From Alphaproteobacteria bacterium (lineage in GTDB: Bacteria > Pseudomonadota > Alphaproteobacteria > TMED109): 64,000 nt of DNA. This document shows, piece after piece, positions 27,588-49,087 of the stretch. Every line of letters begins with the position of its first letter. Within the stretch, counting starts at the first letter, position 1. The notes beneath the pieces are model-generated. The model did no database searches. It was not told the DNA's origin and saw only the letters and a list, made by a program, of their open reading frames with translations. The stretch covers positions 186,001-250,000 of the forward strand of contig JAJEGJ010000104.1 of assembly GCA_022819905.1 (NCBI GenBank), read 5' to 3'. Position numbers and translations under genes: made by a program.

Positions 27588-28503
27588 GTACTTCTTCCAA
27601 CAGCGCGAGCGTGACATCAAAAAGGTCAAACAGGCTATCGACACCCTCCGAACCGCCGACGGTGAAGGGGAGCTCGACAATCGGGATTCCAGCCCTGTCG
27701 GAAAGCCACTTCATCCCCTTGGTCGGTTCATACGGGGCACGGAGAATAGCCCGGGCTCCGGCACTCCGGGCCAGTTCCAGAACCTCTTGCAGATGGCTGA
27801 CGGTGGGCGGGACACCAGGGAGGCGTTCGATTGCAGCGGCCTGCCTGATACCGGTCCACTCATACAGGTAGGCCCACGCTTCGTGGTAGGCGACAACGGG
27901 CATGCCTGCGAGGCGGGATGACCGTTCCATCCATCTTGCCGTGGCGCCCCGCCAGCGCTCCTGGAATGCTGACAGCTGCTGGCGATAGGTCTCGGTGTTC
28001 TCCGGATCGATCACCACAAGCCGGCGGGCCAGCTCCGTGGCCATGTAGCCAATGTTCTCCGGCAGGAGTTGTACATGCGGATTTCCCTCTGCGTGCACGT
28101 GCCTGGGTCTGCGGTCGACGACGCTCAGAGGATCCAGCAGTCGGACATGCTCGCTGGCTATCAGGTGACCGGGCTGACCATGCTGGAGGGACGCGCTCGC
28201 TGCGAGGTGCAGGAGAACCGGGAGCCAACCGTCCTCTAGGCCTGCCCCGGTGCAGAACAGCACATCCGCCCGGCGCACGTGTTCGATGAGACTGGGGTGC
28301 ATCCGGATGTAGTGCGGGTCTTGACGGCCATGCGTTCCCGCGTAGACGCTGACCGCATCGCCCCCGACTTCCGAGGCCAGGGCTGCCCACTCTGGTTCAC
28401 AGGCAAAAATCCGTACCTCGGCAGAGGCCGGGGATGGTTCGACCATCACCAGCACGGCCAACGGGACGAACCAGATCGCCCACGCAATTTGTCTCAGCGA
28501 CAT
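27574..28503 (-). CDS. Zinc/manganese-type ABC substrate-binding protein, copy A
   Basis: A 309-residue periplasmic cluster A-I binding protein, the same length as its close relative at 46630-47559. It has a signal peptide ending PSPASAEV and candidate metal ligands in QDPHYIRM, GNPHVQLLP, VVAYHEAW and APYEP. It lacks the His-rich loop of classical ZnuA. The reading frame is intact although the porin upstream and permease downstream are broken. The frame is also open upstream for 205 codons because the decayed porin lost its stop; the real start is the ATG at 28503, aligned with the intact copy. It could work with another permease or be on the way to loss. Confidence 0.85.
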   Translation of the reverse strand: MSLRQIAWAIWFVPLAVLVMVEPSPASAEVRIFACEPEWAALASEVGGDAVSVYAGTHGRQDPHYIRMHPSLIEHVRRADVLFCTGAGLEDGWLPVLLHLAASASLQHGQPGHLIASEHVRLLDPLSVVDRRPRHVHAEGNPHVQLLPENIGYMATELARRLVVIDPENTETYRQQLSAFQERWRGATARWMERSSRLAGMPVVAYHEAWAYLYEWTGIRQAAAIERLPGVPPTVSHLQEVLELARSAGARAILRAPYEPTKGMKWLSDRAGIPIVELPFTVGGSEGVDSLFDLFDVTLALLEEVHDQY

Positions 28504-28518
28504 TGCTCGGTGCCGACT

Positions 28519-29330
28519 AGTACGCGTGGCTGCATACGTTCCCAAACTCATGATGGGCTGCAGGTACACCTGGGCGTCAGTCTCAACGTGGGTCAGGGAT
28601 TCCCGACTGAGCCGCAACGGCATCCGTCGGAAGCCACTGTTGGTCCACTCGGCCGTCAGCGTGATGGTGGAGGGATAGTGTTCGACCTTGCACTCGTCGC
28701 TCATCGCGTCGGTGGCCGAAATGACCGGACTAGGGGGCGTGCGACGGGCACCGATCAACTGAGCGCAGTCGAACGTGTAGGTGTGTTGAAACGTATCAGC
28801 CGGCCCCTGCGCCGTCGACTTCGTGAATGTCCGGCACTTCTTCGCCCGCGCGGCAGTCGTCTCCGATTCGTCAGAAAACGCTACCCGGCGGGGTGAGTCC
28901 CTGTTTGCAGGGATTGCAGGTGGGCGCAAATGCGCAGTGGACGTCAAAGCCGTGAGGGGCGTGCTTCCGGGGAACGGGTCTTCTGCGAGCCGATCATGAT
29001 GCTCATGCTCGTTGTCATCGCCATGGTCATCCCGTGGTCGTCGCCACTCCTGCGCACGACAGTGCTCCGCTTTACCCATACGCACTGAGCCGAACCGACA
29101 AGTCGCGGTTGAATTCACCCTCTAGGCCGACGTTGCCGAGAACGCGCCAACGCCGTTGCCCGAAGCGCGGAAGGGAACGTCGTCATCCCGGAAAAGCTCC
29201 GCTCCGGCTTCCGCGCACGTATCGACCGGAAACGCCGACGCAAACTCGAGTCTGGTGTCGCCATCCGGTTTGTCACCGAAGCCCCGGTACGGAAGCAGAC
29301 TAGTCTCGAAGCCAAGCAAACGGTTGGTGG
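28519..29330 (-). pseudogene. Remnant of a metal-associated porin, copy A
   Basis: Pieces match the intact porin at 47573-49087 in the same order but in different frames. CAEAGAELFRDDDVPF (near 29200) matches YAEAGAGLFRGDDFPF. EHHDRLAEDPFPGSTPL (near 28980) matches the end of the acidic loop, and HYPSTITLTAEWTNSGFRR (near 28650) plus QPIMSLG match the C-terminal strands. The 5' half and signal peptide are missing, the His/Asp loop is shortened, and the natural stop is gone so the frame runs into the znuA copy. It is clearly a degraded duplicate. Confidence 0.8.
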
Positions 29331-29423
29331 TGACATTGGCGGTTCAGGCGAATCGGATGCTGAGGCAGCGCTGATTGAGCCACGGGATGGGTGTCCGGCG
29401 TTCGGCGAAGCCGGCCTTGAGGA

Positions 29424-29728
29424 GGTGAGGGCTGTTGGCGAGCAGCAGCAGTGTTACCGATGCCGCGACAATGAAGCAGCTACCAATGGCTGCTTCCTGC
29501 TCCACGGTCATGGTCTTTCCCACCCATCGGAACAGAAACGCAAACACCGCTGCAGCGCCGAATGCCGCCACCTGGACTGCGGCCCGTGACGGCTCCATCC
29601 CCCAGATGTTCAGCGCGACGATCGCAACACCAGCCACCTGTGCTGTGGCTAGGTCGATGAAGACGATTCCCCGCCTCAGAACCTCAATGCCGAGGGGCGC
29701 ATGCAGTACCGTACACAGGAGGCAGGTA
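29424..29728 (-). pseudogene. Internal fragment of a third znuB2-like permease
   Basis: About 100 codons matching residues 18 to about 115 of the intact permease at 45855-46643, from LLCTVLHAPLGIEVLRRG to VTLLLLANSPH. Both ends are abrupt: upstream it joins a broken glyoxalase-fold gene within a few bases, and downstream it continues into an unrelated tail (LLKAGFAERRTPIPWLNQR). It has no start codon of its own in the right place and cannot encode a permease. It looks like a recombination leftover. Confidence 0.82.
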
Positions 29729-29731
29729 GCG

Positions 29732-32939: not shown

Positions 32940-34106
32940 CTAGGAAAGCCATGCCTGCAGATACACCAGGGCTCCCGGAATTCCGAAGAAGACGACGAGG
33001 ATGTAGCCGACAGCCAATCCCTTCCGCTCGCTCGCGATTCCGGCGATCCACTCGGCACCCGCGATCGGAAGATGCCGAAGCCAGTGGATGCCGTAGATCA
33101 CGATGATTCCAAGCAGATTGTAGAGAAAGTGGACAATCGCGATCTGGTGCGCGACGGCATGAGTGGGGCCCGTGATCGCCGTTGCAGCTAACAGTGCGGT
33201 AATCGTCGTCCCGAGATTTGCGCCCAGGGTAAACGGGTAGACATGTCGAAGCCCGATCACCCCACTCCCCGCCAAGGGCACTACGACGCTCGTGGTGGTC
33301 GACGATGATTGGACTAGCACTGTCACTAGCGTGCCTGAGAAGATGCCCGTCACCGGCCCCTTGCTGACGGCTGCTTGCAGGAAATTTTTGGCCCTGCCCG
33401 CGAATGCAGTTTTCAGTGTCCTGCCGAGAAAGGTGATGGACAGCAGGATGAGTGCAATCCCTACTACGACGAGGACCGCGCCTGACCACATGTTGGGCAA
33501 CCAGGACACAAAGGACTCGACGACACTGGCACCGCCCCCCACGACGACCTTGACGATGCCCTTTTCTGAGCCCGCGACAGGTCCGATGCCCTCGATGCCG
33601 TGAGCTACCAGCTCGCTCAGCTTCTCGAGCAGGCCAAATGCCAACTCCAGCGGCAGGAAGACGACGATGCTCAGGAGGTTGAAGAAGTCATGCACGGTGG
33701 CTGCCGCGAAGGCAGCCCTGAACTCGCCCGGTTGCTTTACATGGCCCAAACTGACCAGCGTGTTGGTAACCGTCGTCCCGACATTGGCCCCCATCACGAT
33801 AGGTATCGCAACCGAGACAGGCATCCCGCCCGCCACGAGACCCACGATGATCGCGGTGACCGTGCTGGACGATTGAAGCAGCGCCGTCCCCAGGATGCCG
33901 AGCACGAGTCCGATGAACGGGTTCGTGGCGAACGTGAACAGGAATTCGACGCCTGCCTCGCCACCAAAGACTTGGCGAAATCCCTTGCCGACGACGTCGA
34001 CGGCGACGAGCAGTCCGTAGACAGCGACTACGACGACCGACCAGCGAACAACCGCACTCCGAGAGATCATTCTGCTGCTTTCGCCATTTGCCAATGTCCC
34101 TATCAT
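32940..34106 (-). CDS. Na+/phosphate cotransporter family protein (NptA-like)
   Basis: A 388-residue inner-membrane protein with two PF02690-type repeats. Each repeat has the diagnostic QSSS motif: LLQSSSTVTAIIVGLVAGGM and VLVQSSSTTTSVVVPLAGSG, followed by GANVGTTVTN and GANLGTTITA respectively. About nine hydrophobic segments are visible. There is no C-terminal PhoU-like domain, so it is closer to NptA/SLC34 than to YjbB. Two starts are possible (34106 and 34070). It lies 140 bp after the last gene of the zinc-permease train, so it could be a separate transcription unit. Confidence 0.88.
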   Translation of the reverse strand: MIGTLANGESSRMISRSAVVRWSVVVVAVYGLLVAVDVVGKGFRQVFGGEAGVEFLFTFATNPFIGLVLGILGTALLQSSSTVTAIIVGLVAGGMPVSVAIPIVMGANVGTTVTNTLVSLGHVKQPGEFRAAFAAATVHDFFNLLSIVVFLPLELAFGLLEKLSELVAHGIEGIGPVAGSEKGIVKVVVGGGASVVESFVSWLPNMWSGAVLVVVGIALILLSITFLGRTLKTAFAGRAKNFLQAAVSKGPVTGIFSGTLVTVLVQSSSTTTSVVVPLAGSGVIGLRHVYPFTLGANLGTTITALLAATAITGPTHAVAHQIAIVHFLYNLLGIIVIYGIHWLRHLPIAGAEWIAGIASERKGLAVGYILVVFFGIPGALVYLQAWLS

Positions 34107-34246: not shown

Positions 34247-34738
34247 TCAGAAAAACACCACCAGCAGCGCGAGGCCACCTAGTCCGCCGAGGATGAAGGC
34301 AGCGGCGCTGACCATGCCAGCCAACGTGGCCCAGTCGGCCGCACGCCAGGTCTGCGCCTCGATGTTGAACATGACCTCTGACCGATCACCCTCGCCGTCG
34401 GTGAAGCGCTTGAGGGCAGTCTCGCTGCCATGCGCTTCCCGGATCGAGACCACGGTGACCAGGAACATGGTGAGCGCCGATGTCAGCGTGCCGATCCCGA
34501 ATATCAGGACGGTGGCCAGCGCTAACCAGTGGAAGGCGCCTTCGGCCTGCCCACCGGTGGCAGCGCTCATGAAGCCGATGACGAGCGCGGTGCCCGCACC
34601 ATTGCCGAACAGGAGGAAACGGGTCGCTTCAAGCAGATTGCGGAACATGATGTTCCGTCGCATGGAGACGACCTTGTAGCCCTCGCGAAGCCATTCCTCC
34701 GCGGTTTCTTCCCGTTCGAATTCGTTGATCCTCTTCAC
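34247..34738 (-). CDS. Small multi-pass membrane protein of unknown function
   Basis: A 163-residue protein with a charged N-terminus (RINEFEREETAEEWLREGY) and three to four hydrophobic segments: about 53-75, 78-100 and 138-163. A loop in between reads SIREAHGSETALKRFTDGEG. I do not recognise a family. Its GTG start overlaps the stop of the binding-protein gene (GTGA), so it is translationally coupled and is the last member of the overlapping gene train that begins with znuC. A membrane partner or accessory factor for that system is the natural context guess. Confidence 0.72.
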   Translation of the reverse strand: MKRINEFEREETAEEWLREGYKVVSMRRNIMFRNLLEATRFLLFGNGAGTALVIGFMSAATGGQAEGAFHWLALATVLIFGIGTLTSALTMFLVTVVSIREAHGSETALKRFTDGEGDRSEVMFNIEAQTWRAADWATLAGMVSAAAFILGGLGGLALLVVFF

Positions 34739-35916
34739 TGGGAAACCGCCTTCACCGGATGTTCCCCGGCAAACTCGATGATGCGCACATAGTCTGACCC
34801 CGTGTTGCTGCTAGCGTCGAAGGAAATCTCCCACCCGTCGATGACGGCCGGCTCCGCCGCCAGCGCGGTCCTGAGGAAGTCCTCTCGGTTCGGCGCGCCT
34901 GGCATGCGCTGAAGCACGTCGATGACGAACCGGCCCAGGATGTAGCCTTCCAAGCTTGTCGCATCCGCAGTGCGTGCCGCCGCCTCCGGCACAGCGGCTC
35001 GGTATGCAGCCAAGGCGGATCGAAACTGCTGAACCAGCGAGAGGCTTCCATCTCCGGCGTCCGGCATCACCCGGGCGACCAAAGCGGGTCCGAGGCGGTG
35101 CCCGAGCCGTTCCCGGAGTTGGCCGAGGTTCACGACCGACAGGAGCCCAAAGACGTAGTCGTGACCAAACGAACGCGCCATGTCGATCGCGTCGCCGGCA
35201 TTCGTCGTCGTCGACGCGAGCATCACGACATCGAGTTCCGCTTTCTCCAGGACGAACAGGCTGCCGTAGACGGAGTGGGAGTGCCAGGAATAGGACGCCT
35301 TGGCAAGGATCGGCAGATCGAGAGCCATCAGCGCGTCGCGGTAACCGGCCAGCACCGAACGGCCGAATGCATCGTCCTGGTAGATGATGCCAAAGCGGCG
35401 GGCACCCAGCCTGTCGTGCATGTAGGTGACCAGCTTTCGGGTCTCCTCGGCATAGCCGGTTCGCAGGTTCACCACGTTGGGAAAGCGGTCTCGATCGCGT
35501 AGCAAATTGGTGCCGGAGAGGACCCCGATGAACGGTACATGCGCACTCCGCAGTATCGGTGCCATCCTGAGCGCCGTCGGCGTGCCCAAGCCACCGATGA
35601 CAGCGAAGACGCCGTTGTCGGCGGCAAAGCCAACCGCGTTGGCCGCGGCAGTATCGGCATCGTACGCATCGTCACGCGACACCAGCGCAAGTATTCTGCC
35701 GTCGATACCGCCCCGGAGGTTGCGCTCGTGGAAGGCCGCGTCAATGCCGGCCCCGTACTGCAGACCGGTGGTTCTGCACACACCGGAGAAGCAGCTGCTC
35801 TGGGCGAAGACGATTCGGTCGCCCGTCACACCAGGCACTTCGGCGTTGGAATCAGCGAAGGCCTGGACCGGCAGTGCCAGCGCGACGATGGCAAGCTGCC
35901 TAACGGGCAGGAGCAT
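34735..35916 (-). CDS. LivJ-like periplasmic ligand-binding protein
   Basis: A 393-residue type I periplasmic binding protein with a signal peptide (LAIVALALPVQAFADSN). Features are DRIVFAQSSCFSGVCRTTGL (where amino-acid receptors usually have LTG), HERNLRGGIDGRILALVSRD, FAVIGGLGTPTALRMAPIL and RRFGIIYQDDAFGRSVLAGY. These match the branched-chain amino-acid / urea ABC receptor family. No Liv permease or ATPase genes are nearby. It overlaps the HflK-like gene by 17 bp and the small membrane gene by 4 bp, so it belongs to the SPFH/zinc train and may act as an orphan sensor or receptor there. Confidence 0.82.
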   Translation of the reverse strand: MLLPVRQLAIVALALPVQAFADSNAEVPGVTGDRIVFAQSSCFSGVCRTTGLQYGAGIDAAFHERNLRGGIDGRILALVSRDDAYDADTAAANAVGFAADNGVFAVIGGLGTPTALRMAPILRSAHVPFIGVLSGTNLLRDRDRFPNVVNLRTGYAEETRKLVTYMHDRLGARRFGIIYQDDAFGRSVLAGYRDALMALDLPILAKASYSWHSHSVYGSLFVLEKAELDVVMLASTTTNAGDAIDMARSFGHDYVFGLLSVVNLGQLRERLGHRLGPALVARVMPDAGDGSLSLVQQFRSALAAYRAAVPEAAARTADATSLEGYILGRFVIDVLQRMPGAPNREDFLRTALAAEPAVIDGWEISFDASSNTGSDYVRIIEFAGEHPVKAVSQ

Positions 35917-37315
35917 CGCTCGTCTTTGCCTTCGTGGTCGGTTTCGGCTCCGCTCCAGCGACGGTCTCCAGCATTGAGCCAGCCGCCCCGGGCTTCACCT
36001 CCTCTGTCAGGGCGGGCTTGTCTTCGGTCCCTTCGCCGGGTTCGACGACCGTCCCGGTCACAAGCGGAGGTTCGTCTCGCTCAGCGGCCGCCGCGACATC
36101 GGTCGGCGCGACATGGCGGTGACTGAAGATGGAGAGATCGTCAAATATCAAAGACCGAGGCTGGGCCGTACCCAGATGGTGGCGTTCCGCACCAGTCGAA
36201 TGGAAACGGCCCGAGATCGGGAAGCGGTCCTGCGCAATATTCTCGAACCCGTGCCGGCCCCGTTCGCTCGCCGTTGTGAGGGACCGCCGCGTACCTACCA
36301 GGGTTCCCGTCGAGACGTCGGCAGGTGCCCGCGCACCGGGTGCCCAACCGGCGCCGGGCACGAAACCATCGATCATGTTGATGTCGATCGCCGAAGCCTC
36401 ACCGGGCCCCGCCGCCGCGAGCGTGGCGTCCTGGAAGATCGTGCGCATCCGCTGCCAGTAGCGCGTTACCGTCACCGGGGCTGGCTGGCTGCGATATGCC
36501 GCCAGCAGTTGTGAAAACGCATCAGCGCTGCCCTCAGCCTGCTGCCGGCGCTCCTGCGCACGGGCTTGCGCGTTGGTGACCACGGCATTGGCCTGGCCCC
36601 GGCTGCGGGCGAGCAGCCGCTCTGTCCGCCGTCTTGCATCGCTGACCGCCTGAATGCTCTCAGCGATCGCGTCGCTCACGTCCCGGAACGCCGCCACGGT
36701 TTCGTCGATCGGGCGCAGGTCCACGATGCTGAGCGCCAACAACTCGATACCGACGTCGTTGGCTTCCAGCCAGGCAAGTACGTTCCTGAACAGGTGCGCC
36801 TGGATGATATCGCGGTTGTTGGTGAAGATGAGGTCGATGAAGTTCCTGCCCATGATCTGCACTAGGCGTTCGCGCACGATCAAGGTAAGGACGGTTTCCG
36901 GATCGGCCGTCGCATATAGGTAGTTCCGCAGGTTGCCGATGCGGTACTGCAGCGCGATGCTGGCTTCGAAGAGGTTGGCGTCGCCCGACAGGATCGAGAA
37001 GGACACGCTGCCCTGTTCATCCCGGGTCGCCACATCGCGCCGGGTGATGCGCATGACCTTGCGGACATGGGCCTGTTCGACGAACGGCAGCGCGTAGTGG
37101 ATGCCGGGCGGAATCTCTGCCCTCACGACCTCGCCAAAGCGCGTGAGAACCGCCTGCTCTTCCTTCTTCACGACATAAATGCCGGACGCCAGGACCGCTG
37201 CCACTGCAAGTGCCGCCAGCGAGGCGAGGGTGACCGTGCCGCGCCCGCGCAGCCGGTCAAAGACCGCGTAGATGACGCGGGTACTCGGCGCAAGCGCTTC
37301 GGAAGCTTCCTGCAT
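35900..37315 (-). CDS. SPFH/Band 7 membrane protein, HflK-like
   Basis: A 471-residue SPFH protein. A single membrane helix (about residues 28-48) is followed by the HflK-like start VKKEEQAVLTRFGEVV, then IPPGIHYALPFVEQ and SILSGDANLFEASIALQYRI. The Band 7 core is followed by a helical region rich in Arg, Ala and Gln. The last 160 residues are low-complexity and not HflK-like. HflK with HflC forms a membrane cage around FtsH in E. coli. Here it follows an HflC-like gene by 12 bp, with no FtsH in sight, and belongs to a metal-transport gene train. Assignment as an HflK paralogue is solid; the partner protease or transporter is unknown. Confidence 0.82.
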   Translation of the reverse strand: MQEASEALAPSTRVIYAVFDRLRGRGTVTLASLAALAVAAVLASGIYVVKKEEQAVLTRFGEVVRAEIPPGIHYALPFVEQAHVRKVMRITRRDVATRDEQGSVSFSILSGDANLFEASIALQYRIGNLRNYLYATADPETVLTLIVRERLVQIMGRNFIDLIFTNNRDIIQAHLFRNVLAWLEANDVGIELLALSIVDLRPIDETVAAFRDVSDAIAESIQAVSDARRRTERLLARSRGQANAVVTNAQARAQERRQQAEGSADAFSQLLAAYRSQPAPVTVTRYWQRMRTIFQDATLAAAGPGEASAIDINMIDGFVPGAGWAPGARAPADVSTGTLVGTRRSLTTASERGRHGFENIAQDRFPISGRFHSTGAERHHLGTAQPRSLIFDDLSIFSHRHVAPTDVAAAAERDEPPLVTGTVVEPGEGTEDKPALTEEVKPGAAGSMLETVAGAEPKPTTKAKTSDAPAR

Positions 37316-37327
37316 GGGTTCGGCCCT

Positions 37328-38254
37328 CTACTCTGGCACCCGCACCGAATCCGGGGTCGGTGCCGGTGCCGAGATCGTCCCACCGTCCAAGTATTTGAAC
37401 AGCTCGCTGTCGGCGGGCAGGATCAGTGTGGTGTTCTGGTCGATGATCGAATCGTAGCTGTCGAGCGCCCGGATGAACTCGTAGAAGTCCGGGTCCGCGC
37501 GATAGGCCTCGGCAAGTGTCTTCAGGGCATCGGCCTCCGCCTGGCCCAGAATGACCGTCGCCTCGGCATGGGCGGCCGCCATAATCTTCTGATGCTCGTT
37601 GATCGCGAACGCTTCTATGCCAATTGCCCGTTCCTCGCCCTCGCTGCGGTAGCGGGCGGCGATGCGGGCGCGCTCGGAGATCATCCGCTTGATGACGCTC
37701 GGGCGGTTCTCCGCCGGCAGGGTGTATTCGACCAAGCCGGCTCGGACGACGTCGATTCCGTAGTCTACTGAGGCAACGGGCTGAATCTGTTCGAGGATTT
37801 CCCCGGAAACCTTGGCCACGTCCTGATGCTGCAGGCCGAGGCTGACAAAGGCGTCCCTTGACTTGTTGCTGACGACGATGCCGACACTCGATCGGTAGAG
37901 GTCGCCCAGACGCTTGACGGCATTGGCCTCGGTCCGGATGGCTTCGACGAAGCGGATGGGATCCGCAACCCGCCACAGCAAATAGCCGTCCACCAGGACA
38001 TTCTTCTGGTCCTCGGTGATCAGTTCCTGCTTGAGGCCTGTCAGTGGCCGGATCCGTCGGTCAACCTTGTAGACGATGGAAATCGGCGTGGGCAGTTTGA
38101 AATGCAGGCCAGGACCCCTGACCGGCGGGATGATCTTCCCGAAATGGGTGAGGACGCCCTGCTCCGATTCGTCGATCACATAGTGAATGTCCCAGGCCAG
38201 CACGCCCGCGATCAGGACTGCGGCGGTCGCCGCGATGGTCTTGTACCTGCTCAT
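37328..38254 (-). CDS. SPFH/Band 7 membrane protein, HflC-like
   Basis: A 308-residue HflC-like protein: membrane helix at about residues 7-22, then YVIDESEQGVLTHFGKIIPP and VRGPGLHFKLPTPISIVYKV. The segment GYLLWRVADPIRFVEAI and the GIDVVRAGLVEYTLPAENRP segment are typical HflC features, as is RMISERARIAARYRSEGEE before the C-terminal coiled coil. Its ATG overlaps the stop of the permease-SPFH fusion gene (ATGA). With that fusion and the downstream HflK-like gene it forms three SPFH genes in a row. Confidence 0.87.
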   Translation of the reverse strand: MSRYKTIAATAAVLIAGVLAWDIHYVIDESEQGVLTHFGKIIPPVRGPGLHFKLPTPISIVYKVDRRIRPLTGLKQELITEDQKNVLVDGYLLWRVADPIRFVEAIRTEANAVKRLGDLYRSSVGIVVSNKSRDAFVSLGLQHQDVAKVSGEILEQIQPVASVDYGIDVVRAGLVEYTLPAENRPSVIKRMISERARIAARYRSEGEERAIGIEAFAINEHQKIMAAAHAEATVILGQAEADALKTLAEAYRADPDFYEFIRALDSYDSIIDQNTTLILPADSELFKYLDGGTISAPAPTPDSVRVPE

Positions 38255-40578
38255 GGCTGGCCTCCCGAATTTGCCGCTTCGTGTCCGCTCTGATGTCCGT
38301 GTCCCGGCTGCTCGGGGCGGCCGGGGTCAGTGGCGGTGACGCCGTTCGATGATTTCCACAAGGCGACTTTCTTCAGCGTGTCTCCGTTCGGCACGATGAC
38401 CTTGCGCCGCCCCGCAAGTGACGCCTCGAGCTTCTCCCGCCACAGCATGGTGTGCAACACATCGGGCGCCTGCTGCACCACGTCCGCGACCGTGCGGATG
38501 GCCTCACTCTCCGCGGCCGATGTCACCGTTCTCCGTTCCGCTTCGCCCTTGGCCTGCTCGACTTCGTAGGTCGCGTTGCCGTGCGCCCGGGGGATCATCG
38601 ACACGGTCAGGCGCTGGGCGTTTACGATGATGCGTTCCCGATCATCCTGCGAACTTGAGACTTCGCGGAACGCGCTCATCGAGTCGGCCGCCGGTTCGAC
38701 CGACAGCAGGCTGACCCGGACCAGTTCGATCGCGTCGAGCAGGACGCCGTCCCCGCCGGCCATGCGCCTCTCGAACACATTCGCGATATGGTCCTGAAGT
38801 TGCGCCCGCTCAACATTCAGCAGTTTATCGAGCGTCCGCCCGGCCACGTACTTCCGCAGTTCCTTGCGGATATTGTCGCCGATCACCCACTCCGGGTTCG
38901 CGACGCGGTAGTGGTAGACGTACGGATCCTTGACCCGGTACTGAACGCTCATCGACATGGACACGAGGTTTACGTCGCCTGTGAGATACTCGTCTGACGG
39001 GCCGCTGGTGACGGATTTGACCTGTCGCACTGGCCAGCGATCCGCCTGTGCAAAGGGCCAGGGCGCGAGATAGTGCAGGCCGGGCGGCAGGTCGCGCCAC
39101 ACCACCGCGCCGAACAGCCTCCCGTAACCGACCTCGCCGGGACGCACGACCATAAGACCGCTGGCCAGAAAGGCGATGACCAAGGCAGCCAGAATGCTCG
39201 CGCCGGCCGGGGTGCCAGGCCGGAACAGGCCCTTAACAGGGGCATTGCGCGTCATCCTGGCCCACCAGCTCTTCAGTGGTGCAGACACCGGGCGCAGGTT
39301 GGAAAACAGGTCCTGGTAACCGGTCTTGAATGCACCGGCCCGGAAACGCCAGAACATGAGGGCGAAGAGACCGAGCGCACCAGCCCACTGGAGGGTCAGC
39401 AAGGCCGGCGACTCAGACGCATCGAGGTTCACCGAAAGCGACAGGCCGAAGGCGATCATGGCCAAGTCAACGGCGATGCCCAATACCATCGTTACGGCAA
39501 TCACCGACCCGACATAGACGGATGCGAAGCGCGCGCCAAACTGACTGGCGACGATTGCGATAGTCCCGGTATTGGTGGCTGGGCCGGTCATCAGGAAGAT
39601 GAGCGCTGCACCGGGGCTGAAGCCCTTGGCAACCAGGGCTGCAGCGATCGGCGTGCTGGCAGAGGCGCAGATATAGAGCGGGACCCCGACTAGCACCATG
39701 ACCGGGTAGGACAGCCAGCGGGCGTATTCGTGGGCCATAAGGTCGTTTGGTATGGCGAGATAGAGCGCGCCGCCCAGAATGACGCCGACCAGCAGGGCAA
39801 AGAGGATATCGTCGGCGACCTCGACAAAGCCGTAGCGCAGAATGTGCTTGCAGACAGTGGTGAAGGACAGGTCGCCGAGGCCGTGACCGGCGTCGGTCCG
39901 TTGCGTGGCTTGGACCTCGGGAAGCGAGAGAAACTCGCGGTAGAAATCGGGCTTGATCCACGTCATCGACCGGGCCCGCCCGATGCCCTGGTTCATGCGG
40001 GCCAGCCAGGCAACGAAGAACGCCTTAAAGGCAGCCGGGCTGATGTAGCAGTCGTCGTCGCCAGGGATCAGGGTCTTGTGCCCATGATCGTGACCATGAT
40101 GATCGTGTCCATCATGGTCGTGGTCCTGGTCGGAATCTTCCGCGGCCGGCTCGGGCGTCGCGCCATCACGGATCATGCCGATGCAGAAGATGCCGGCCAC
40201 GACGGCGGTGATGAAGCTAATGACCGGACGGACCACGGCAGCGACGGGGCCGAAGAAGGCGTTCGTGACCAGAATCGAGTCTGCCCCGGTTTCGGGCGCC
40301 GTGATCAGGAACGACATGCAGGCCGAGCGCGAGGCCCCCTTGCGCCGCATCTCCGCGACCACCGGGACCACTGAGCAACTGCAGAGCGGCATCGGTACGC
40401 CGATCGCCGCGCTGGCGGCCACGGACTTCAGACTGTCGCGGTGCAGCCATCGCAGGACGGCATCCCGCGAGATAAAGACGTGGATCAGCCCGGCCAAGAA
40501 CAGCCCGAGCAGAAGCATCGGCCCGAGCAGCAAGAAGGACGTCCACAGGAACTCCAAGAACAAGACAAGGGTTTCCAT
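38251..40578 (-). CDS. Fusion of a PLCSCS-type permease with an SPFH (HflK-like) domain
   Basis: A 775-residue membrane protein with two parts. Residues 1 to about 430 are a PF03773-type permease (SO_0444/ArsP-like) with about eight to ten helices, the motif PMPLCSCSVVPV at 63-74, a His/Asp-rich cytosolic or periplasmic loop at about 150-168 (HDHDGHDHHGHDHGH), and the second-half motif ASASTPIAAALVAKG. From about 454 comes another helix (SILAALVIAFLASGLMVV) and an HflK-type SPFH domain (RPGEVGYGRLFGAVVWRDLP). The C-terminus ends in a short His-containing tail. The ATG has GGAGGGG upstream and overlaps the znuA stop (TAATG). Metal export or sensing is likely; the fusion itself I have not seen described. 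Confidence 0.85.
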   Translation of the reverse strand: METLVLFLEFLWTSFLLLGPMLLLGLFLAGLIHVFISRDAVLRWLHRDSLKSVAASAAIGVPMPLCSCSVVPVVAEMRRKGASRSACMSFLITAPETGADSILVTNAFFGPVAAVVRPVISFITAVVAGIFCIGMIRDGATPEPAAEDSDQDHDHDGHDHHGHDHGHKTLIPGDDDCYISPAAFKAFFVAWLARMNQGIGRARSMTWIKPDFYREFLSLPEVQATQRTDAGHGLGDLSFTTVCKHILRYGFVEVADDILFALLVGVILGGALYLAIPNDLMAHEYARWLSYPVMVLVGVPLYICASASTPIAAALVAKGFSPGAALIFLMTGPATNTGTIAIVASQFGARFASVYVGSVIAVTMVLGIAVDLAMIAFGLSLSVNLDASESPALLTLQWAGALGLFALMFWRFRAGAFKTGYQDLFSNLRPVSAPLKSWWARMTRNAPVKGLFRPGTPAGASILAALVIAFLASGLMVVRPGEVGYGRLFGAVVWRDLPPGLHYLAPWPFAQADRWPVRQVKSVTSGPSDEYLTGDVNLVSMSMSVQYRVKDPYVYHYRVANPEWVIGDNIRKELRKYVAGRTLDKLLNVERAQLQDHIANVFERRMAGGDGVLLDAIELVRVSLLSVEPAADSMSAFREVSSSQDDRERIIVNAQRLTVSMIPRAHGNATYEVEQAKGEAERRTVTSAAESEAIRTVADVVQQAPDVLHTMLWREKLEASLAGRRKVIVPNGDTLKKVALWKSSNGVTATDPGRPEQPGHGHQSGHEAANSGGQP

Positions 40579-41561
40579 TAACCCCTCCCGCCGCTGAGGC
40601 ATCTTTCGAAGGCGGACCCGAGATTGCGCATGATCTCGAACCAGGCGTCCGGACCGGATGGGGCCGTGAGCCCAATCGGGTCCAGCGACGCTGTGCGCAC
40701 CCCCGTCCCCTCGATCACGGTCCGAACTAGGTCCGGCTCGAACTGCGGTTCGGTGAAGACGCAACTGACGTTGCGCGCAGCCAGCGTCGCACGCAACTCA
40801 GCGAGTCGCTTGGCGCCCGGCGGGCGGGCCGGATCGACGGCGACTGCGCCCGCAGCCTCGAGCCCGAACGACTCTTCGAAATATCTGTAGCCGTCGTGAA
40901 ACACGATGAAGGCGCGGTCGCCAAGCGGCGCCAGGTGGGTGCGCAACGCCGCCGCCAGCGCATCGATGCGTGCCTGCACCGCCTCCGCGTTGCGGCGATA
41001 CGTCCCGGCATGGGTCGGGTCGATCCGGACCAACGCGTCCGCAATCACGCCCGCGATGCGCCGCGCGTTGCCGGGGTCGAGCCAGAGGTGCATGTCAAAT
41101 TCACCATGGTCGTGGCCGTGGTCGGCGTGTTCGTCCGCGTGAACCTCACTCTGCACACCGTGCTCGAAGATGCCGCCCTCCCGGTTGGGCAGTAAGCGCA
41201 GCCCGGGCTCCTCGTGCAGCGTGAGCACGACGGCGCCAGTCCCCAATGTCGCAACCGGTCGTGTGAGGAAGGACTCCAAACCAGGCCCGATCCAGACCAC
41301 TAGATCAGCCCTGCGCAGCATCCGCGCCTCCGAGGGCCGCATCTGATAAAGATGCGGTGACGCGCCGCCACTCACCAGCAGCCGGGGTTCCGCTACGCCC
41401 TGCATCACGCCAGCGGCCAAGGAATGCAACGGCTTGATGCTTGCCACCACCTCGGGCGCAGCCCCCGCCGGCAATCCAGCGGACGCAGACAGGACGGCGG
41501 CTAGGAGGGCCGGTACCAAGACCGCTCGCCGCCACCTACCACTGCTCTGGCCGCCCGTCAT
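40578..41561 (-). CDS. znuA: Zinc ABC transporter substrate-binding protein
   Basis: A 327-residue periplasmic zinc receptor. It has a signal peptide (ALLAAVLSASAGLPAGAA), zinc-ligand histidines in KPLHSLAAGV (His46) and GASPHLYQMRPSEA (His70), then the flexible His-rich loop at about 134-158 (VHADEHADHGHDHGEFDMH) that distinguishes ZnuA from manganese receptors. FHDGYRYFEESFGL and FTEPQFEPDL complete the fold. The ATG at 41561 overlaps the znuB stop (ATGA); the frame upstream is only open because it runs antiphase through znuB. The next gene is coupled by TAATG. Confidence 0.93.
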   Translation of the reverse strand: MTGGQSSGRWRRAVLVPALLAAVLSASAGLPAGAAPEVVASIKPLHSLAAGVMQGVAEPRLLVSGGASPHLYQMRPSEARMLRRADLVVWIGPGLESFLTRPVATLGTGAVVLTLHEEPGLRLLPNREGGIFEHGVQSEVHADEHADHGHDHGEFDMHLWLDPGNARRIAGVIADALVRIDPTHAGTYRRNAEAVQARIDALAAALRTHLAPLGDRAFIVFHDGYRYFEESFGLEAAGAVAVDPARPPGAKRLAELRATLAARNVSCVFTEPQFEPDLVRTVIEGTGVRTASLDPIGLTAPSGPDAWFEIMRNLGSAFERCLSGGRG

Positions 41562-42352
41562 GGCCGCGCACGCCGGGCCGGGACGGGCAGGCCGGCGAGG
41601 AACAATAGGCCGGCGACCAGGACGATGGCTGGCCCTGCCGGAAGATCCCAAGCCAGCGATCCGGCGAGGCCTGCCCCGACCGAGACCGCCCCGGCGGCAA
41701 CTGCGGCGGCGGCCATCGCCTCGGGCGTCGTCGCGATCCGGCGTGCCGCAGCGGCCGGCATGATCACCAGTGCCACCACCAGCAGCATGCCGACGATCTT
41801 CATGCCAACGGCAATCACTGCAGCTAGCAGAAAGACGAGCAGCAGGCGGACCCGTTCGACCGGCACGCCCTCGGCTGCGGCTAGGTTCGGGTCGATGGTG
41901 ATCGCGAGCAAGTTGCGCCACTGCCAGGCGATGGCGGTGAGGGTCGCCGCAGCGGTCACGCCGATCAGCCACAGATCCGCCGCGCCGATCGAGAGGATGT
42001 CGCCGAATAGGTAGCCGATCAGGTCAACCCGCACCCGTTCCATGAACGCCAATGCCACCAGACCGCCAGCGAAGGCCAGGTGGGCGAGCACGCCGAGCAA
42101 GGTGTCGACGGCGACAGGTGAGTGACGCTCAAGCAGGGCAAGGCAGCCAGCAAACAGGAAGCAGACCACCAATACTGCGAGCGTCGGTTCGATCTCCAGC
42201 AGGAAGCCGAGTGCCACGCCGAGCAGCACCGCGTGCGCCAGCGCCGTACCGAAATATGCCATGCGCCGCCACACCACGAAGCAGCCGACTGGGCCTGCCG
42301 CCAGCGCCACACCGAGTCCACCGGCGAGTGCGCGCCACACGAAATCCTCCAT
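41558..42352 (-). CDS. znuB: Zinc ABC transporter permease
   Basis: A 264-residue ABC-3 family inner-membrane permease with about eight helices, homologous to ZnuB. The family pattern is visible in AGPVGCFVVWRRMAYFGTAL at the N-terminus, then GVALGFLLEIEP, LIGYLFGDILSIGAADLWLI and GMKIVGMLLVVALVIMPAAA near the C-terminus. I use the ATG at 42352, which shares one base with the znuC stop (TGATG). It is more distantly related to the three znuB2-like sequences at 26.8, 29.5 and 46 kb, which form their own group. Confidence 0.93.
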   Translation of the reverse strand: MEDFVWRALAGGLGVALAAGPVGCFVVWRRMAYFGTALAHAVLLGVALGFLLEIEPTLAVLVVCFLFAGCLALLERHSPVAVDTLLGVLAHLAFAGGLVALAFMERVRVDLIGYLFGDILSIGAADLWLIGVTAAATLTAIAWQWRNLLAITIDPNLAAAEGVPVERVRLLLVFLLAAVIAVGMKIVGMLLVVALVIMPAAAARRIATTPEAMAAAAVAAGAVSVGAGLAGSLAWDLPAGPAIVLVAGLLFLAGLPVPARRARP

Positions 42353-43194
42353 CAAGCCCGCCCGCCGGTCGGCGCTGGGTCCGCCAGGGCGTCGTGGCGG
42401 TGATCGTGCTGGTGGGGATAGGCTGCCAGCGCCTCGGCGAGGTGCTGGCCGAACAATGCAACGAAGGCTGGGTCACGCGCGATCGTCCGCGGCGGGCCCG
42501 AACAGCAGACATGCCGGTTCAGGCAAACCACCCGGTCCGTCGCAGCCATCACCAAGTGGAGATCGTGCGAAACCAATAGCACGCCGCAGCCGTAGCGGTC
42601 TCGGATCCGCGCCACCAGGTCGTAGAGCTCGCCCTGGCTTGCGATGTCTACCCCGGCGGTCGGCTCGTCGAGCACCAGCAACTCCGGCTCGCGCAGCAGC
42701 GCCCGCGCCAGCAGGACGCGTTGCAGCTCTCCGCCGGAGATTTCCGCCATCGGCAGGTCAAGGATCGCGTCCGCCCCAACCTCGCCGAGCGCCCCCGCCA
42801 CCCGCTCAGGCACCACCAGCGCACTGAGCGAGAGAAAACGCCGCACCGTCAGCGGCAGGAACGGGTCACGCCTAACCTGCTGAGGTGAATAGCCGACGCG
42901 CAGGCCGGGCGCACGCGTAGCCGTACCGTCGTCAGGCCGGAGGATACCAAGCAGAACCCGTACCAGCGTTGATTTGCCGGCGCCGTTCAGCCCGACAAGA
43001 GTGACGATTTCGCCGGCGTGGACCGTCAGGTCAACCGCCTCTAGCACGCGCCGTTGGCCCAACTGGACGCTGACCTGCCGTGCCTCTACGAGCGGCCGCC
43101 CGCGGTGTTCGCTGTCCCGCCCGCCCCTGTGTCGAGGATCGCCCCCGGACGCTTCGCCGCCGAATAGCTCGTTGGCGGGCGGAAATGCGTTCAC
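42352..43194 (-). CDS. znuC: Zinc ABC transporter ATPase
   Basis: The ATPase that drives ZnuB, with Walker [11 protein letters not shown]-loop [12 protein letters not shown], signature [15 protein letters not shown], Walker [13 protein letters not shown] and H-loop [12 protein letters not shown]. The C-terminal extension has HQHDHRHD, common in ZnuC. I chose the GTG at 43194 (280 residues); a start at 43293 would add 33 residues, and the true start could be later, near the [10 protein letters not shown] core. It is the only transporter ATPase visible for all the zinc-type permeases in this window, so the znuA2/znuB2 modules may share it. Confidence 0.9.
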
Positions 43195-43874
43195 CGCAAA
43201 ATCTACCCTGGTTGCCGTCCGGCGGGTGAAAACACGCCCCGCTTCGCGGGCTGGGCAGAACCGCGTTGGCACGCCCGTCGCCGGGACACGCATGCCATCA
43301 TGTCATCGGCTCGCCATTTGGCGACTGCCCTGTCTTCTCGAACGCCATCGCCGTCCTCTCCCCCAATCCACACTCGTCCTGATCCCGTCCAAAGGGTTCC
43401 GAGCACGCCAGAACCGAGTGGCGAGTGGCGCTGCGGCCCGAATTTCGCTCACGCTACGCGATAACTGTCGCTATCACGCACAATGATGTCAAGTCACGTC
43501 CGTAAGCCTGTCGCACCGTCTTCCAGGTATGATCTGTTGCCAATGCTAGATTCTATGTCTTTGAATCGCACGGTTTTCCTGGCTTCTGACGAGTTGCGCT
43601 TAAGCCGCACCGTCAGATAGAAGGGCTTACCGGCACCGTCAATTGTTCAAACCGATAACTGTTTGGTGAATCCGTCTCCGGCTGGTGTGCACGGCCTGAC
43701 CCGGGCGCTGCGCCCGGACAGACCCTGCACCACCGTGGCGGGCGGGCTACGCGCGCCGCCGTCTTGAAGATATGGGGGCACCTGCCCGGGGCTGAGCGTC
43801 TCGCCGCCTCAATTTGCCATCCTTGCCGAGCGAGCGAGACAACCGGTCGTCGGCGATGCTGCTGTAAATAGAAT
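43195..43874. other. Upstream region of the znuC gene train
   Basis: About 680 bp without a supported gene. It should hold the promoter of the znuC train. A weak dyad, GATA-N8-TATC (43460-43475), is the only operator-like sequence noticed and is not a convincing Zur box. A 7-bp perfect hairpin (CCGGGCG-CTG-CGCCCGG, 43701-43717) has no T-run. The right end abuts the inverted-repeat element. Confidence 0.5.
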
Positions 43875-43908: not shown

Positions 43909-44740
43909 TTACGCTGCCAGCCTTCGATCCGTTTCACGGGTCGCCGGGGTCGCTGAATGCGATCGCCCCTCGCCGTGCAGCCGCGCCAGTCCCCGACGCC
44001 GGATGTTGCGGGCCGCGTTCAGGTCCGCGTGATCCGCGTGGCCGCAGGCGACGCACTCGAAACTCGCCCGACTGCGGCGCGAGGCGGCGTCCGCATGGCC
44101 GCACGCGGCGCAGGTCCGGCTGGTATGGGCCGGGTCCACCGCGACCAGCCGCGGCGCCTTGTAGGCCAGCATCGCGCGGAGACCGCTCCAGCCCGTCGCC
44201 AGGATCCCGCGGTTCAGGCCGGCTTTCTGCCGGACGTTCCGCCCGGGCGCCGCCACCGTGCCCCTCGCCGATGCGGTCATCGCGCGCGTCCGCAACGCCT
44301 CGACCGCCACCGTGCCCCCGGCCAGCGACCGGCTCACGTGGTGCTGCCAGTCGCGGCGCCGCTGCGCGATCCGCCGCTGCGTGCGCTCGCGCCGTCTCGA
44401 GCCGCGGCGCTGCCGGGCGAGGCGGCGCTGATACCGCCGCTTCCGGGCCTCCAGCCGCCGGCTGTCGGGCGCGTGCACGATGCGGGCGCGACGGCCGTCG
44501 CTGACGGCGACCTGGCCGACGTTCATGTCGATGCCGGTGGCCGTGCCGTCGTCGGGACGCGCGGGCGCCACGACCGCGTAACACACGACGGCCATACATG
44601 CGCGCCATGTCATGGAGCTGCGCCTGCTGGTCGAGCATCTCGTTCCAGACGAACCGGCAACCGCCGCCAGGCGCTGGGCGGTGGCCGGCCGAACAGCACC
44701 CGGTAGACGATCTGCCGGTGCTCCACGCCGTCCGGCCCAT
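43909..44740 (-). pseudogene. tnpB: tnpB (IS605 OrfB-type RNA-guided nuclease) remnant
   Basis: The C-terminal two thirds form one open frame with all RuvC parts: TATGIDMNVGQVAVSDGRRA (first catalytic Asp), GTVAVEALRTR (Glu), a zinc ribbon CAACGHAD with FECVACGHAD, and DHADLNAARNIRRR (last Asp). The N-terminal third is broken: HRQIVYRVLFGRP, ATAQRLAAVAG and CRFVWNEMLDQQAQ occur in three different frames. More than 100 residues of the usual wedge/REC region are deleted between ARMYG and VCYAVV. The gene ends 2 bp from the inverted repeat, so no normal right end or omega-RNA scaffold remains. It is not expected to work. Confidence 0.85.
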
Positions 44741-45854: not shown

Positions 45855-46643
45855 TCACGTCTGGCGAAGATCTTGCCGTGAAGTTGGGCGGGACATCCAG
45901 CGAGACACGACGCGGACCACGATGGCGGACACGGCAAAACAGAGTACGAGGAACGGCCCGGCCGGAAGATCAGCTGCGGTTGACACCAGGATTCCTGCAA
46001 TGACCGCAACGCCACCGCTAAGAAGGGCACGCCAAAGACTGTATGAGCCGTCCGTCCGCCGCCCCGCCAGCGCCGGCAGAATCAGACTCGCAAAGACCAC
46101 GTACACTCCCAGCAATTGAACAGACGCGGTTACCGCGAGTGCAAACAACAGGAAGAACCCTTGCCCGGTTCTGAGAGCCGGGTACCCCAGCCAAAGCCCG
46201 GCGACCAGGAGATACACCGGCAGGAATGCGGTCAGATCTGACCAAGACGTGAACAGGATCTGGCCCGAGAGAATGTGCTCGAGCTTTTCCCCTCCATGCG
46301 GGCTGTTAGCGAGCAGCAGCAGGGTCACCGATGCGGCGACGATAAAGCAGCTGCCAATGGCCGCTTCCTGCTCATCGGGGATGGTTCTTTCCGCCCACCG
46401 GAACAGGAAGGCAAACGCTGCTGCCGCTCCAAATGCCGCCACCTGGGTTCCGATCCACGATGGGTCCGTTACCCAGATGTTGAGCGCGACGATCGCGACC
46501 CCGGCCACCTGCGCCGTGGCTAGGTCGATGAACACGATTCCTCGCCTCAGCACCTCGATGCCCAGCGGCGCATGCAGCGCCGTACACAAGAGACCGATCG
46601 CGAATGCCGGTAGGACGATCTCAAGTAATTCAGTGTCGATCAC
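45855..46643 (-). CDS. ABC-3 family metal permease, intact copy B (znuB2-like)
   Basis: A 262-residue permease with about eight helices: MIDTELLEIVLPAFAIGLLC, APLGIEVLRRGIVFIDLATA and AAIGSCFIVAASVTLLLLAN. LLGVYVVFASLILPALAGRR is the conserved C-terminal helix region. The PLGIEVLRRGIVFIDLA segment replaces the GCFVVWRRMAYFGTAL segment of classical ZnuB. It overlaps the binding-protein stop by 14 bp, exactly like the damaged copy A. There is no ATPase in this module, so it probably borrows ZnuC or a distant one. Zinc or another first-row metal is the likely substrate. Confidence 0.88.
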   Translation of the reverse strand: MIDTELLEIVLPAFAIGLLCTALHAPLGIEVLRRGIVFIDLATAQVAGVAIVALNIWVTDPSWIGTQVAAFGAAAAFAFLFRWAERTIPDEQEAAIGSCFIVAASVTLLLLANSPHGGEKLEHILSGQILFTSWSDLTAFLPVYLLVAGLWLGYPALRTGQGFFLLFALAVTASVQLLGVYVVFASLILPALAGRRTDGSYSLWRALLSGGVAVIAGILVSTAADLPAGPFLVLCFAVSAIVVRVVSRWMSRPTSRQDLRQT

Positions 46644-47559
46644 GCACGGTTTCCAGCAGCGTGAGTGTTACGTCAAAAAGGTCGAACAAGTCGTCGACGC
46701 CCTCCAGGCCGCCGACGGTAAAGGGCAACTCGACAATTGGGATCCCGGCCTTGTCAGAAAGCCATTCCATCCCCTCTGAAGGCTCGTACGGAGCACGGAG
46801 AATGGCGCGGGCGCCCGCAGTCCGGGCCAGTTCCAAGACCTCTTGCAGATGGCTGGCCGTCGGCGGAACACCCGGGAGGCGTTCGATCGCCGCGACTTGT
46901 TCGATACCGGTCCACGCGAACAGGTAGGTCCATGCTTCGTGGTACGCGACGACGGGCATGCCTTCGAGTTGGGACGTCCGTCCCGTCCATCCTGCGGTAG
47001 CGTCCTTCCATCGGTCCTGGAACGCCGACAGCCGACGGCGATACGTCTCGGCGTTGTCTGGATCGATCACCGTGAGGCGGCGGGCCAGCTCGGTCGCCAG
47101 GAAGCCAATGTTCGCTGGCAGGAGCTGCACGTGCGGATTGCCCTCCGCGTGCACGTGTCCCAGGCTGCGGTCGACACGGCTGGGCGGGTCCAGCAATCGG
47201 ACATGGGCGCTGGCCATCAGGTGACCGGGTTGATGGGGCTGGATGGTCGCACGAGCTCCCCGCTGCAGAAGCACCGGAAGCCATCCTTCCTCCAAGCCCG
47301 CCCCGGAGCAAAACAGAACGTCGGCCCGGCGTACTTGGGCGATTAGGCTGGGGCGCGCACGGATATAGTGCGGGTCCTGTCGGCCATGCGTTGCCGCATA
47401 CACATGGACCGCATCGCCCCCGATGTCGGAGGCCAAGGCCGCCCATTCTGGCTCGCAGGCGAAAATGCGCACTTCGGCAATCGCCGGGGATGGTTGAACC
47501 ATCCCCGGCGCGGCCAGCGCGGCGATCCAGGTCATCCGCGCAAGTCGTTTTAACAACAT
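46630..47559 (-). CDS. Zinc/manganese-type ABC substrate-binding protein, intact copy B
   Basis: A 309-residue periplasmic cluster A-I receptor, with a signal peptide ending PSPAIAEV. The probable metal ligands are His64 (QDPHYIRA), His143 (GNPHVQLLP), His207 (VVAYHEAW) and an acidic residue in APYEP (about 259). There is no His-rich loop. It starts 13 bp after the porin stop and overlaps the permease by 14 bp, giving a porin-receptor-permease order that suggests outer-membrane, periplasmic and inner-membrane steps of one uptake route. It is nearly collinear with copy A at 27574-28503. Confidence 0.88.
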   Translation of the reverse strand: MLLKRLARMTWIAALAAPGMVQPSPAIAEVRIFACEPEWAALASDIGGDAVHVYAATHGRQDPHYIRARPSLIAQVRRADVLFCSGAGLEEGWLPVLLQRGARATIQPHQPGHLMASAHVRLLDPPSRVDRSLGHVHAEGNPHVQLLPANIGFLATELARRLTVIDPDNAETYRRRLSAFQDRWKDATAGWTGRTSQLEGMPVVAYHEAWTYLFAWTGIEQVAAIERLPGVPPTASHLQEVLELARTAGARAILRAPYEPSEGMEWLSDKAGIPIVELPFTVGGLEGVDDLFDLFDVTLTLLETVRDRH

Positions 47560-47572
47560 CGATCAGCCCCGA

Positions 47573-49087
47573 TCAGTACGTGTGCGCTCCATGAGCGCCC
47601 AGGCTCATGATGTACTGCAGGTACAGTTGGTCGTCGGTTACCTCGCTGGTCAGCGCTTCCCGGCTGAATTGCAGCCGGACCCGCCCGAACTCGCTGTTGG
47701 TCCAGTCGCCCATTAGCGAGACGGTCGACGGGTCGTGTTCGACTTCGTACACGTGATTTGCCATGTCGGCCGAGCTCAGCGGATTGAGGCGAGAATACCG
47801 GAAGCCGATCCGCCAGGCAGGGTTGAACTTGTACGTGCCTTGCAGGTACCAGCCGCTGCTCGTGCCGTCGACCGCGGTCATTTCGCCCTCATCATCGCTG
47901 TACACGCCGTCTTCAGCACGCCAGAAGTACTCGCCTTGCAGCGTCACCTCTTGGTCACGAGGATTGCCGGTCGGTGCCCACGTGTAGCGTACATCGAGGG
48001 CGTAGAGCGTGGTGTCGCCGGTAAACACGCCTTCCGCGAGAAGGTCGTGATGCCCTTCCTGCTCCTCGTCGCCGGCCATTTCTGGTTCGTCATCGTGATC
48101 GTCGTCATGTACGTCAGTGTCAATGCGTTCCTCTTCATCGTGATCCGCATCATCTTCGTCGTCATGCACCTCTTCGTCGTCATGCCCCTCTTCGCCATGT
48201 GCATCGCTGCTGCCATGACCGTGGGCAATGCTGCGTGGGGTGGCCGATCCATTCAGCACGTAAGCGCCAACACGGAATGACTGGTTGGTGCCGATGTCGT
48301 TACCAAGCCGGGCGTAGGCCGACGTCACGCCGCGGCCGGTGTCTGAGCTCCCGAAGGGGAAGTCGTCGCCACGAAACAGTCCGGCACCCGCCTCCGCGTA
48401 CATCTCCGACGGGAACACGTAGGCGAGTTCGAGGCCGTTATCGTTGTACGATTTGTCAATGAACACCCGGTAGGGAAGTGGCCGATCAACGAAGTCGTCC
48501 GCGTGTGGATGGTGTTCGTTCAGGTAGCCCAGGGTCCAGAACGCCCGTCCGGCCTTGACGCGGAGCCCGTCCGGAAGTCCGGCGCCTGGCAGGGTTTGGA
48601 TGTAGGCCTCTTCGAGCTCAATGGCTTCGGAGCCGTCCTCTTCTGCGTGAATGCCGATAGTGCTGCTTCCAAAGAACTTGTCGTCGATGTTGGCGGAGAA
48701 GTTGAATTCGGTTTCGATCAGAGAGAGGCCTTCTTGGCCGCGCTGGCTTTCGTGTCCGAGCTGAAACCCCGAGACTTCCTGGGGTGCCGCCGAAAAGTCC
48801 GCCACGGCCGCATTCAAGATGACCCCGATGGCGGGATTAAACGCACTGCTTTGGCCACGGGCGCCGGTTGCCGGAGTTGCCGGCGCAGCAGATTGGGTGG
48901 TGATGGCTTCGAGTTGAGCCTCGAGGTTTTGGATGCGGGTCTCGTAATCTTGTTTCAGCGCCTTGATTTCGGCGGCAAGTTCCGCCGCAGTTGGCGCATC
49001 GTTGGTTTGGGAATGCACTTCCGGCGCGATCAGGAAAATCGGCGCGGCCAGAAGCGCAAGTCTAGTTAGTCCATGAAGGGATGGCAT
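47573..49087 (-). CDS. Outer-membrane porin-like protein with a long His/Asp/Glu-rich loop
   Basis: A 504-residue outer-membrane protein with a signal peptide (to about residue 26) and a short coiled coil at about 35-65 (AAELAAEIKALKQDYETRIQ), as in trimeric porins. A beta-barrel region follows, ending in aromatic strands (LYLQYIMSLG). Between about 285 and 348 lies an extreme acidic/His loop (HGEEGHDDEEVHDDEDDADH), followed by GHHDLLAEGVF. Such a loop could collect zinc or similar ions at the cell surface. It lies directly upstream of a metal receptor and permease and is duplicated, in degraded form, at 28.5-29.3 kb. This is a porin rather than a TonB receptor because no plug domain or TonB box is visible. 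Confidence 0.82.
   Translation of the reverse strand: MPSLHGLTRLALLAAPIFLIAPEVHSQTNDAPTAAELAAEIKALKQDYETRIQNLEAQLEAITTQSAAPATPATGARGQSSAFNPAIGVILNAAVADFSAAPQEVSGFQLGHESQRGQEGLSLIETEFNFSANIDDKFFGSSTIGIHAEEDGSEAIELEEAYIQTLPGAGLPDGLRVKAGRAFWTLGYLNEHHPHADDFVDRPLPYRVFIDKSYNDNGLELAYVFPSEMYAEAGAGLFRGDDFPFGSSDTGRGVTSAYARLGNDIGTNQSFRVGAYVLNGSATPRSIAHGHGSSDAHGEEGHDDEEVHDDEDDADHDEEERIDTDVHDDDHDDEPEMAGDEEQEGHHDLLAEGVFTGDTTLYALDVRYTWAPTGNPRDQEVTLQGEYFWRAEDGVYSDDEGEMTAVDGTSSGWYLQGTYKFNPAWRIGFRYSRLNPLSSADMANHVYEVEHDPSTVSLMGDWTNSEFGRVRLQFSREALTSEVTDDQLYLQYIMSLGAHGAHTY

Follow-up and report, generated by a model that had tools for sequence, protein, structure and literature searches.

A five-gene cassette joining an SPFH-fused metal permease to HflC- and HflK-like proteins beside zinc-transport genes

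The gene train and its five-gene core

A 64,000-nucleotide stretch of alphaproteobacterial DNA (referred to here as the window, and taken from contig C96 of a draft genome 3.6 Mb in size) carries a train of eight minus-strand genes, the last five of which form a real, apparently undescribed zinc-associated unit in which known families are newly combined. A preliminary description of this DNA listed the eight genes as znuC, znuB, znuA, a permease-SPFH fusion, an HflC-like gene, an HflK-like gene, a LivJ-like gene and a gene for a small membrane protein, joined by overlaps of 1–17 bp or a 12-bp gap, and all eight are present. The pairs znuC/znuB and znuA/fusion overlap by 1 bp (TGATG and TAATG, respectively), znuB/znuA, fusion/HflC-like and LivJ-like/small membrane protein by 4 bp (ATGA, ATGA and GTGA), and HflK-like/LivJ-like by 17 bp, with the 12-bp gap falling between the HflC-like and HflK-like genes. 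The Pfam matches read, in train order, ABC_tran, ABC-3, ZnuA, ArsP_1 together with Band_7 in a single open reading frame, Band_7, Band_7 and Peripla_BP_6, with no match for the last gene.

The fusion gene (38251..40578, minus strand, ATG at 40578) encodes 775 residues with matches to PF03773 and PF01145, in which an SO_0444-type Cu/Zn permease is followed by two more hydrophobic segments and then by an HflK-like SPFH domain. The permease part contains a CxC motif (PLCSCSVVP) and a His-rich loop and passes the NCBIfam model NF033936 for the SO_0444 Cu/Zn efflux family (320.2 bits, cut-off 300), compared with 99 bits against the SaoE model (cut-off 325). Residues 464–737 match E. coli HflK (7vhp) with an E value of 2.5e-18, and the score against the HflK model TIGR01933 is below cut-off (123.5, cut-off 159.4). 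In 15 of 15 fusions, the loop preceding the last hydrophobic segment holds 8–12 Lys/Arg and 1–4 Asp/Glu residues; by the positive-inside rule, this basic loop would place the SPFH domain in the periplasm, as in HflK. The fusion is intact in complete cassette loci, and no plasmid record covers 80% of it. In Shewanella, SO_0444 is required for growth under Zn or Cu stress, as confirmed by complementation (PMC3219624), and export of these metals, known for SO_0444 itself, may by analogy hold for the fusion permease.

The other two SPFH chains are encoded immediately downstream on the same strand. The 308-residue HflC-like protein (37328..38254) passes TIGR01932 (160.4 bits, cut-off 134.4), matches E. 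coli HflC (7vhp_G, E 5.7e-35) and has three His residues, His143, His221 and His229, that are conserved throughout the cassette family. The 471-residue HflK-like protein (35900..37315) contains PF01145, falls below the TIGR01933 cut-off (134.8, cut-off 159.4) and matches E. coli HflK (7vhp_E, E 7e-27). All three chains are homologous to E. coli HflK or HflC over the SPFH domain, the membrane segment that precedes it and the coiled-coil, and this homology is to the solved structure of a periplasmic cage. A further feature of the HflK-like protein is a His tail at about residues 355–401 (codons at 36113..36253, minus strand), where 34 aligned sequences, taken from several phyla, show H355, E358, H372, E377, H380, D392, H399 and H401 to be at least 95% conserved. 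Pfam and PDB searches with this C-terminal tail returned no match, and it is a candidate periplasmic zinc site.

In a tree with two canonical pairs as the reference set (two each of HflK and HflC), the cassette HflC-like, HflK-like and fusion SPFH lineages are each monophyletic with 99–100% bootstrap and stand apart from canonical HflK and HflC, to which they are only about 25–32% identical. The host genome has a separate canonical hflK-hflC-degP operon on contig C55, and the Pfam searches made on neighbouring genes turned up no FtsH gene. The earlier observation of three SPFH units with no FtsH gene stands for the window locus. Identification of the cassette as canonical HflKC was ruled out on the basis of the host's own copy and the separation in the tree. 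In one draft genome (L015:12378-13825), the HflK gene is split over two frames, through either a frameshift or an assembly error.

The two remaining genes, also on the minus strand, encode a periplasmic and a membrane protein. The 393-residue LivJ-like protein (34735..35916) belongs to Peripla_BP_6 (PF13458, 143.8 vs 31.7, E 1.4e-41), has a signal-like N-terminal segment and finds its best PDB relatives in 4kv7 and 3lop. It is conserved as the fourth gene of the cassette, and no LivHMGF-type permease or ATPase occurs among the called neighbour genes that were checked. The small membrane protein (34247..34738) has 163 residues, three long helices and no Pfam hit. It is 52–87% identical across phyla, and its AlphaFold model consists of three helices at a predicted local distance difference test (pLDDT) score of 69.

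Conservation, zinc-transport neighbours and Zur-like boxes

The conserved unit comprises five genes in the order fusion, HflC-like, HflK-like, LivJ-like and 3-helix membrane protein, and this order is constant in about 34 loci (L009–L027, L049–L061, L063 and the window; L062 duplicates L009) at 55–82% identity. When the fusion was used as a query against 84,980 genomes, 19 full relatives were found, and a profile search with the small protein supplied additional cassette loci. By tblastn, the identical gene order occurs in Alphaproteobacteria, Gemmatimonadota, Latescibacterota, Dadabacteria, Opitutia (where the locus is cut off by a contig end) and Gammaproteobacteria. The cassette is rare and patchy, being present in 3 of 385 sampled alphaproteobacteria, 1 of 369 gammaproteobacteria, 15 of 64 members of the Gemmatimonadota/Latescibacterota group and 3 of 57 of the Dadabacteria group. 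The preliminary description knew of no account of such a system, and searches of the open-access literature gave none either, subscription papers being mostly outside their coverage.

Zinc genes lie beside the cassette in every lineage with enough flank to check, so the linkage of SPFH genes to metal transporters, which had been set beforehand as the test on which the idea could fail, is found well beyond the window. In the alphaproteobacterial loci, znu genes are within 10 kb in all 14 of 14 cases, mostly on the opposite strand. The in-line arrangement belongs to the window only. The proposal of a single operon with znuABC does not extend to the other alphaproteobacteria, or to the other lineages, which have different zinc systems. 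The eight-gene train was accordingly ruled out as the conserved unit, since znuCBA is joined to the cassette in the window only. In Gemmatimonadota and Latescibacterota, a ZIP gene is directly downstream on the same strand (15 of 15 loci), and many of these loci have RND genes directly upstream, of the CzcA type in the single one tested. A ZnuA-like/ABC-3/porin trio is near the cassette in all three Dadabacteria loci, which also carry a CusA/CzcA gene nearby, and the gammaproteobacterial locus has zur-znuCB about 14 kb away. Full-length ZIP genes number only about 1–2 per 4–6.5 Mb genome, often just the one adjacent to the cassette, and ABC-3 matches number 2–5 per genome. Because these genes are so few, the swap of unrelated zinc systems between lineages is unlikely to have arisen by chance. 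The independent cases amount to a handful rather than 34, given that loci within one lineage are related.

A second line of evidence comes from a palindrome, TGTTATNNNATAACA, located about 160–345 bp before the cassette in alphaproteobacterial relatives. Within 2 mismatches, 10 such boxes occur in the 4.5 kb upstream of alphaproteobacterial cassettes (0.15 expected), three more precede znu genes and none is present in 239 kb elsewhere. Seven genomes were scanned in full, of which G385 and G392 are the same one: six have 2–6 sites each within one mismatch and one has none, and these sites also precede zur-znuCB, aztABC and znuA. The study of the Caulobacter Zur regulon (PMC4176598) gives an identical core for the boxes of Zur-regulated genes there; its available part notes no SPFH gene or SO_0444-type permease, in which respect the regulon differs from the cassette relatives. 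The study describes one regulator that represses importers and activates RND and P-type exporters, and expression of the cassette in starvation only was dropped as an explanation of the boxes for this reason. With the zinc-transporter neighbours across lineages and the Zur-like boxes in alphaproteobacterial relatives, the zinc connection first suggested from the window alone has gained ground, and involvement of the cassette in zinc is well supported.

Zur-like boxes were also seen at other genes. Four related alphaproteobacteria (L086, L088, L094, L096; L087, L090, L093, L097) have them before a LivJ-type ABC operon, with a divergent LysR gene, and before a formamidase (FmdA) gene. These boxes may mark an unsuspected connection of zinc regulation to amide use. 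In L085, L089, L092 and L095, aztABC shares its Zur-like box with a divergently oriented gene for a DUF6635 protein (assigned by Pfam in L085).

A proposed zinc-handling membrane complex and its alternatives

On balance, we lean towards the five genes encoding one zinc-handling membrane complex. The fusion, HflC-like and HflK-like chains would together form a cage of the HflKC type on the periplasmic side of the inner membrane, with the permease as a covalent part of the cage base and zinc moving between the cytoplasm and the enclosed patch of periplasm. Zinc inside the cage would be bound by the HflK-like chain through its conserved His tail. The LivJ-like protein could act in the periplasm as a ligand receptor or an adaptor, and the small 3-helix protein could be a membrane partner. 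The likeliest role would be zinc buffering or hand-off at the inner membrane together with an importer (Znu or ZIP), joined in some lineages by an RND exporter. By analogy with SO_0444, export into the cage is slightly favoured over import. The most specific form of the proposal is a zinc microcompartment, in which a three-component SPFH cage with a zinc permease in its wall and a zinc-binding His tail is coupled to lineage-specific importers and exporters, and zinc crosses the inner membrane via an enclosed periplasmic chamber. We offer this form tentatively, as a possibility that we rate at less than even.

Comparison with known systems shows which parts of the proposal have precedent. Like the SO_0444 family (NF033936, PF03773), the cassette permease scores above the curated cut-off and has the CxC motif, but it is fused to an extra membrane segment and an HflK-like SPFH domain and comes with four partner genes. 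In the E. coli HflK-HflC cage around FtsH (7vhp, 7wi3, 9cz1), the SPFH, coiled-coil and C-terminal regions are homologous to those of the HflC-like and HflK-like proteins. The cassette differs in its third SPFH chain with a permease, in the conserved His tail of its HflK-like protein past the matched region, and in having no FtsH gene found nearby in a host with separate canonical hflKC. A complete znuCBA importer is upstream in the window, but as a neighbour outside the conserved cassette. The stomatin dome, which encloses aquaporin-1 (AQP1) and UT-B, is a precedent for an SPFH oligomer corralling transporters, as the proposed cage would; it is eukaryotic and its cargo non-covalent, whereas in the cassette the transporter would belong to the SPFH chain (PMC12407830). 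The roles of bacterial SPFH proteins are largely open, and several kinds of contextual evidence connect this locus with zinc. The covalent joining of an SPFH chain to a metal transporter of a named class means that the identity of the cargo is written in the gene, and through the cassette the "membrane encapsulin" idea could be put directly to the test. The cassette would also add to zinc homeostasis an unrecognised candidate metal site in the HflK-like tail and an unnamed membrane protein family.

Several observations weigh against the cage proposal. The LivJ-like family normally binds amino acids or amides rather than metals. The AlphaFold model of the fusion is uninformative, and at a pLDDT of 40 it shows neither topology nor assembly. 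No Zur box within 3 mismatches is present upstream of the window cassette, Zur-like boxes are not enriched in the window's own genome, and a search upstream of the non-alphaproteobacterial cassettes found none. The named relatives are draft metagenome-assembled genomes. A Zur-like box also gives no direction of transport, because Zur may repress an importer or activate an exporter (PMC4176598).

A possible, if rather unlikely, alternative is that the cassette is a zinc-starvation scavenger, Zur-repressed like znuABC, that takes up zinc or keeps it in the periplasm; the permease would then facilitate uptake, with the cage feeding it. The boxes shared by the cassette, zur-znuCB, aztABC and znuA fit this explanation, as does the constant company of the importers Znu and ZIP, with znuCBA in line in the window. 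Against it, the permease domain passes an efflux-family cut-off, SO_0444 mutants are zinc- and copper-sensitive (PMC3219624), RND genes stand upstream in many Gemmatimonadota loci (CzcA type in the one tested) and Zur can activate exporters too (PMC4176598).

A more doubtful explanation is that the substrate is not zinc itself but a different soft metal, an organometal or a complex of metal and ligand that the LivJ-like protein recognises, the zinc genes being only co-regulated neighbours. PF03773 includes organoarsenical exporters, LivJ-like proteins bind small organic ligands, the SaoE model does give a score (99 bits, cut-off 325), and in four relatives Zur-like boxes stand before an ABC operon of LivJ type as well as before a formamidase gene. 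NF033936, however, fits far better (320 bits, above its cut-off), and across lineages the zinc neighbours are swapped for unrelated zinc systems, not lost.

We find it a shade more doubtful still that the SPFH proteins act on FtsH in the manner of E. coli HflKC, by recruiting or restraining it, with zinc transporters degraded according to zinc status and the permease as substrate or sensor. FtsH is a zinc metalloprotease, the HflC-like protein passes the HflC equivalog cut-off, and there is homology to the HflKC-FtsH structures. The Pfam-searched neighbours, however, include no identified FtsH gene, a canonical hflK-hflC-degP operon is present separately in the host, the cassette proteins form separate clades only about 25–32% identical to the canonical ones, and one SPFH chain carries a fused permease. 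Chance or drift, that is, unrelated housekeeping genes in a train in one genome, can be dismissed: short overlaps are usual in compact bacterial operons, but the gene order, kept beside zinc genes in about 34 loci that span several phyla, contradicts it.

Other features beside the cassette

The window znu genes, all on the minus strand, are recognisable at differing strengths. The ATPase gene znuC (42352..43194; exact start uncertain, as the open reading frame opens at 43293) reaches 306.8 bits against PRK09544 (cut-off 306). The permease gene znuB (41558..42352) scores 235 bits against PF00950 and is below cut-off for PRK09543 (269.7, cut-off 284), and znuA (40578..41561), for a zinc-binding protein with a His-rich loop, matches PF01297 and is below cut-off for PRK09545 (243.5, cut-off 268).

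Outside Gemmatimonadota, the cassette has a second recurrent kind of neighbour in phosphate transporters (Na/Pi, or PHO4 with GPP34), seen in L010–L014, L017, L018 and L061, in L015, L022, L024, L025, L027, L060 and L063, and in the window. The Na/Pi cotransporter homologues beside the cassette in L015, L022, L024, L025, L027, L060 and L063 are 71–77% identical. The window copy (32940..34106, minus strand, PF02690) is 140 bp downstream of the train on the same strand. Between znuA and PHO4, both L010 and L011 have a Zur-like box.

The trio found near Dadabacteria cassettes is also present in the window, where it forms a second zinc-transport set (45855..49087, minus strand) of a His-rich outer-membrane-porin-like protein (47573-49087), a ZnuA-like protein (46630-47559) and an ABC-3 permease (45855-46643). 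A degraded second copy of this trio is located at 26802-29730, with about 80% DNA identity over 1.9 kb and a porin remnant in frame with the ZnuA-like gene. Between the znuCBA genes and the intact trio, just upstream of znuC, is a TnpB/OrfB-type gene (43909-44613; Cas12f1-like TNB, OrfB_IS605), which borders the promoter region of the window locus and may have displaced the original promoter.

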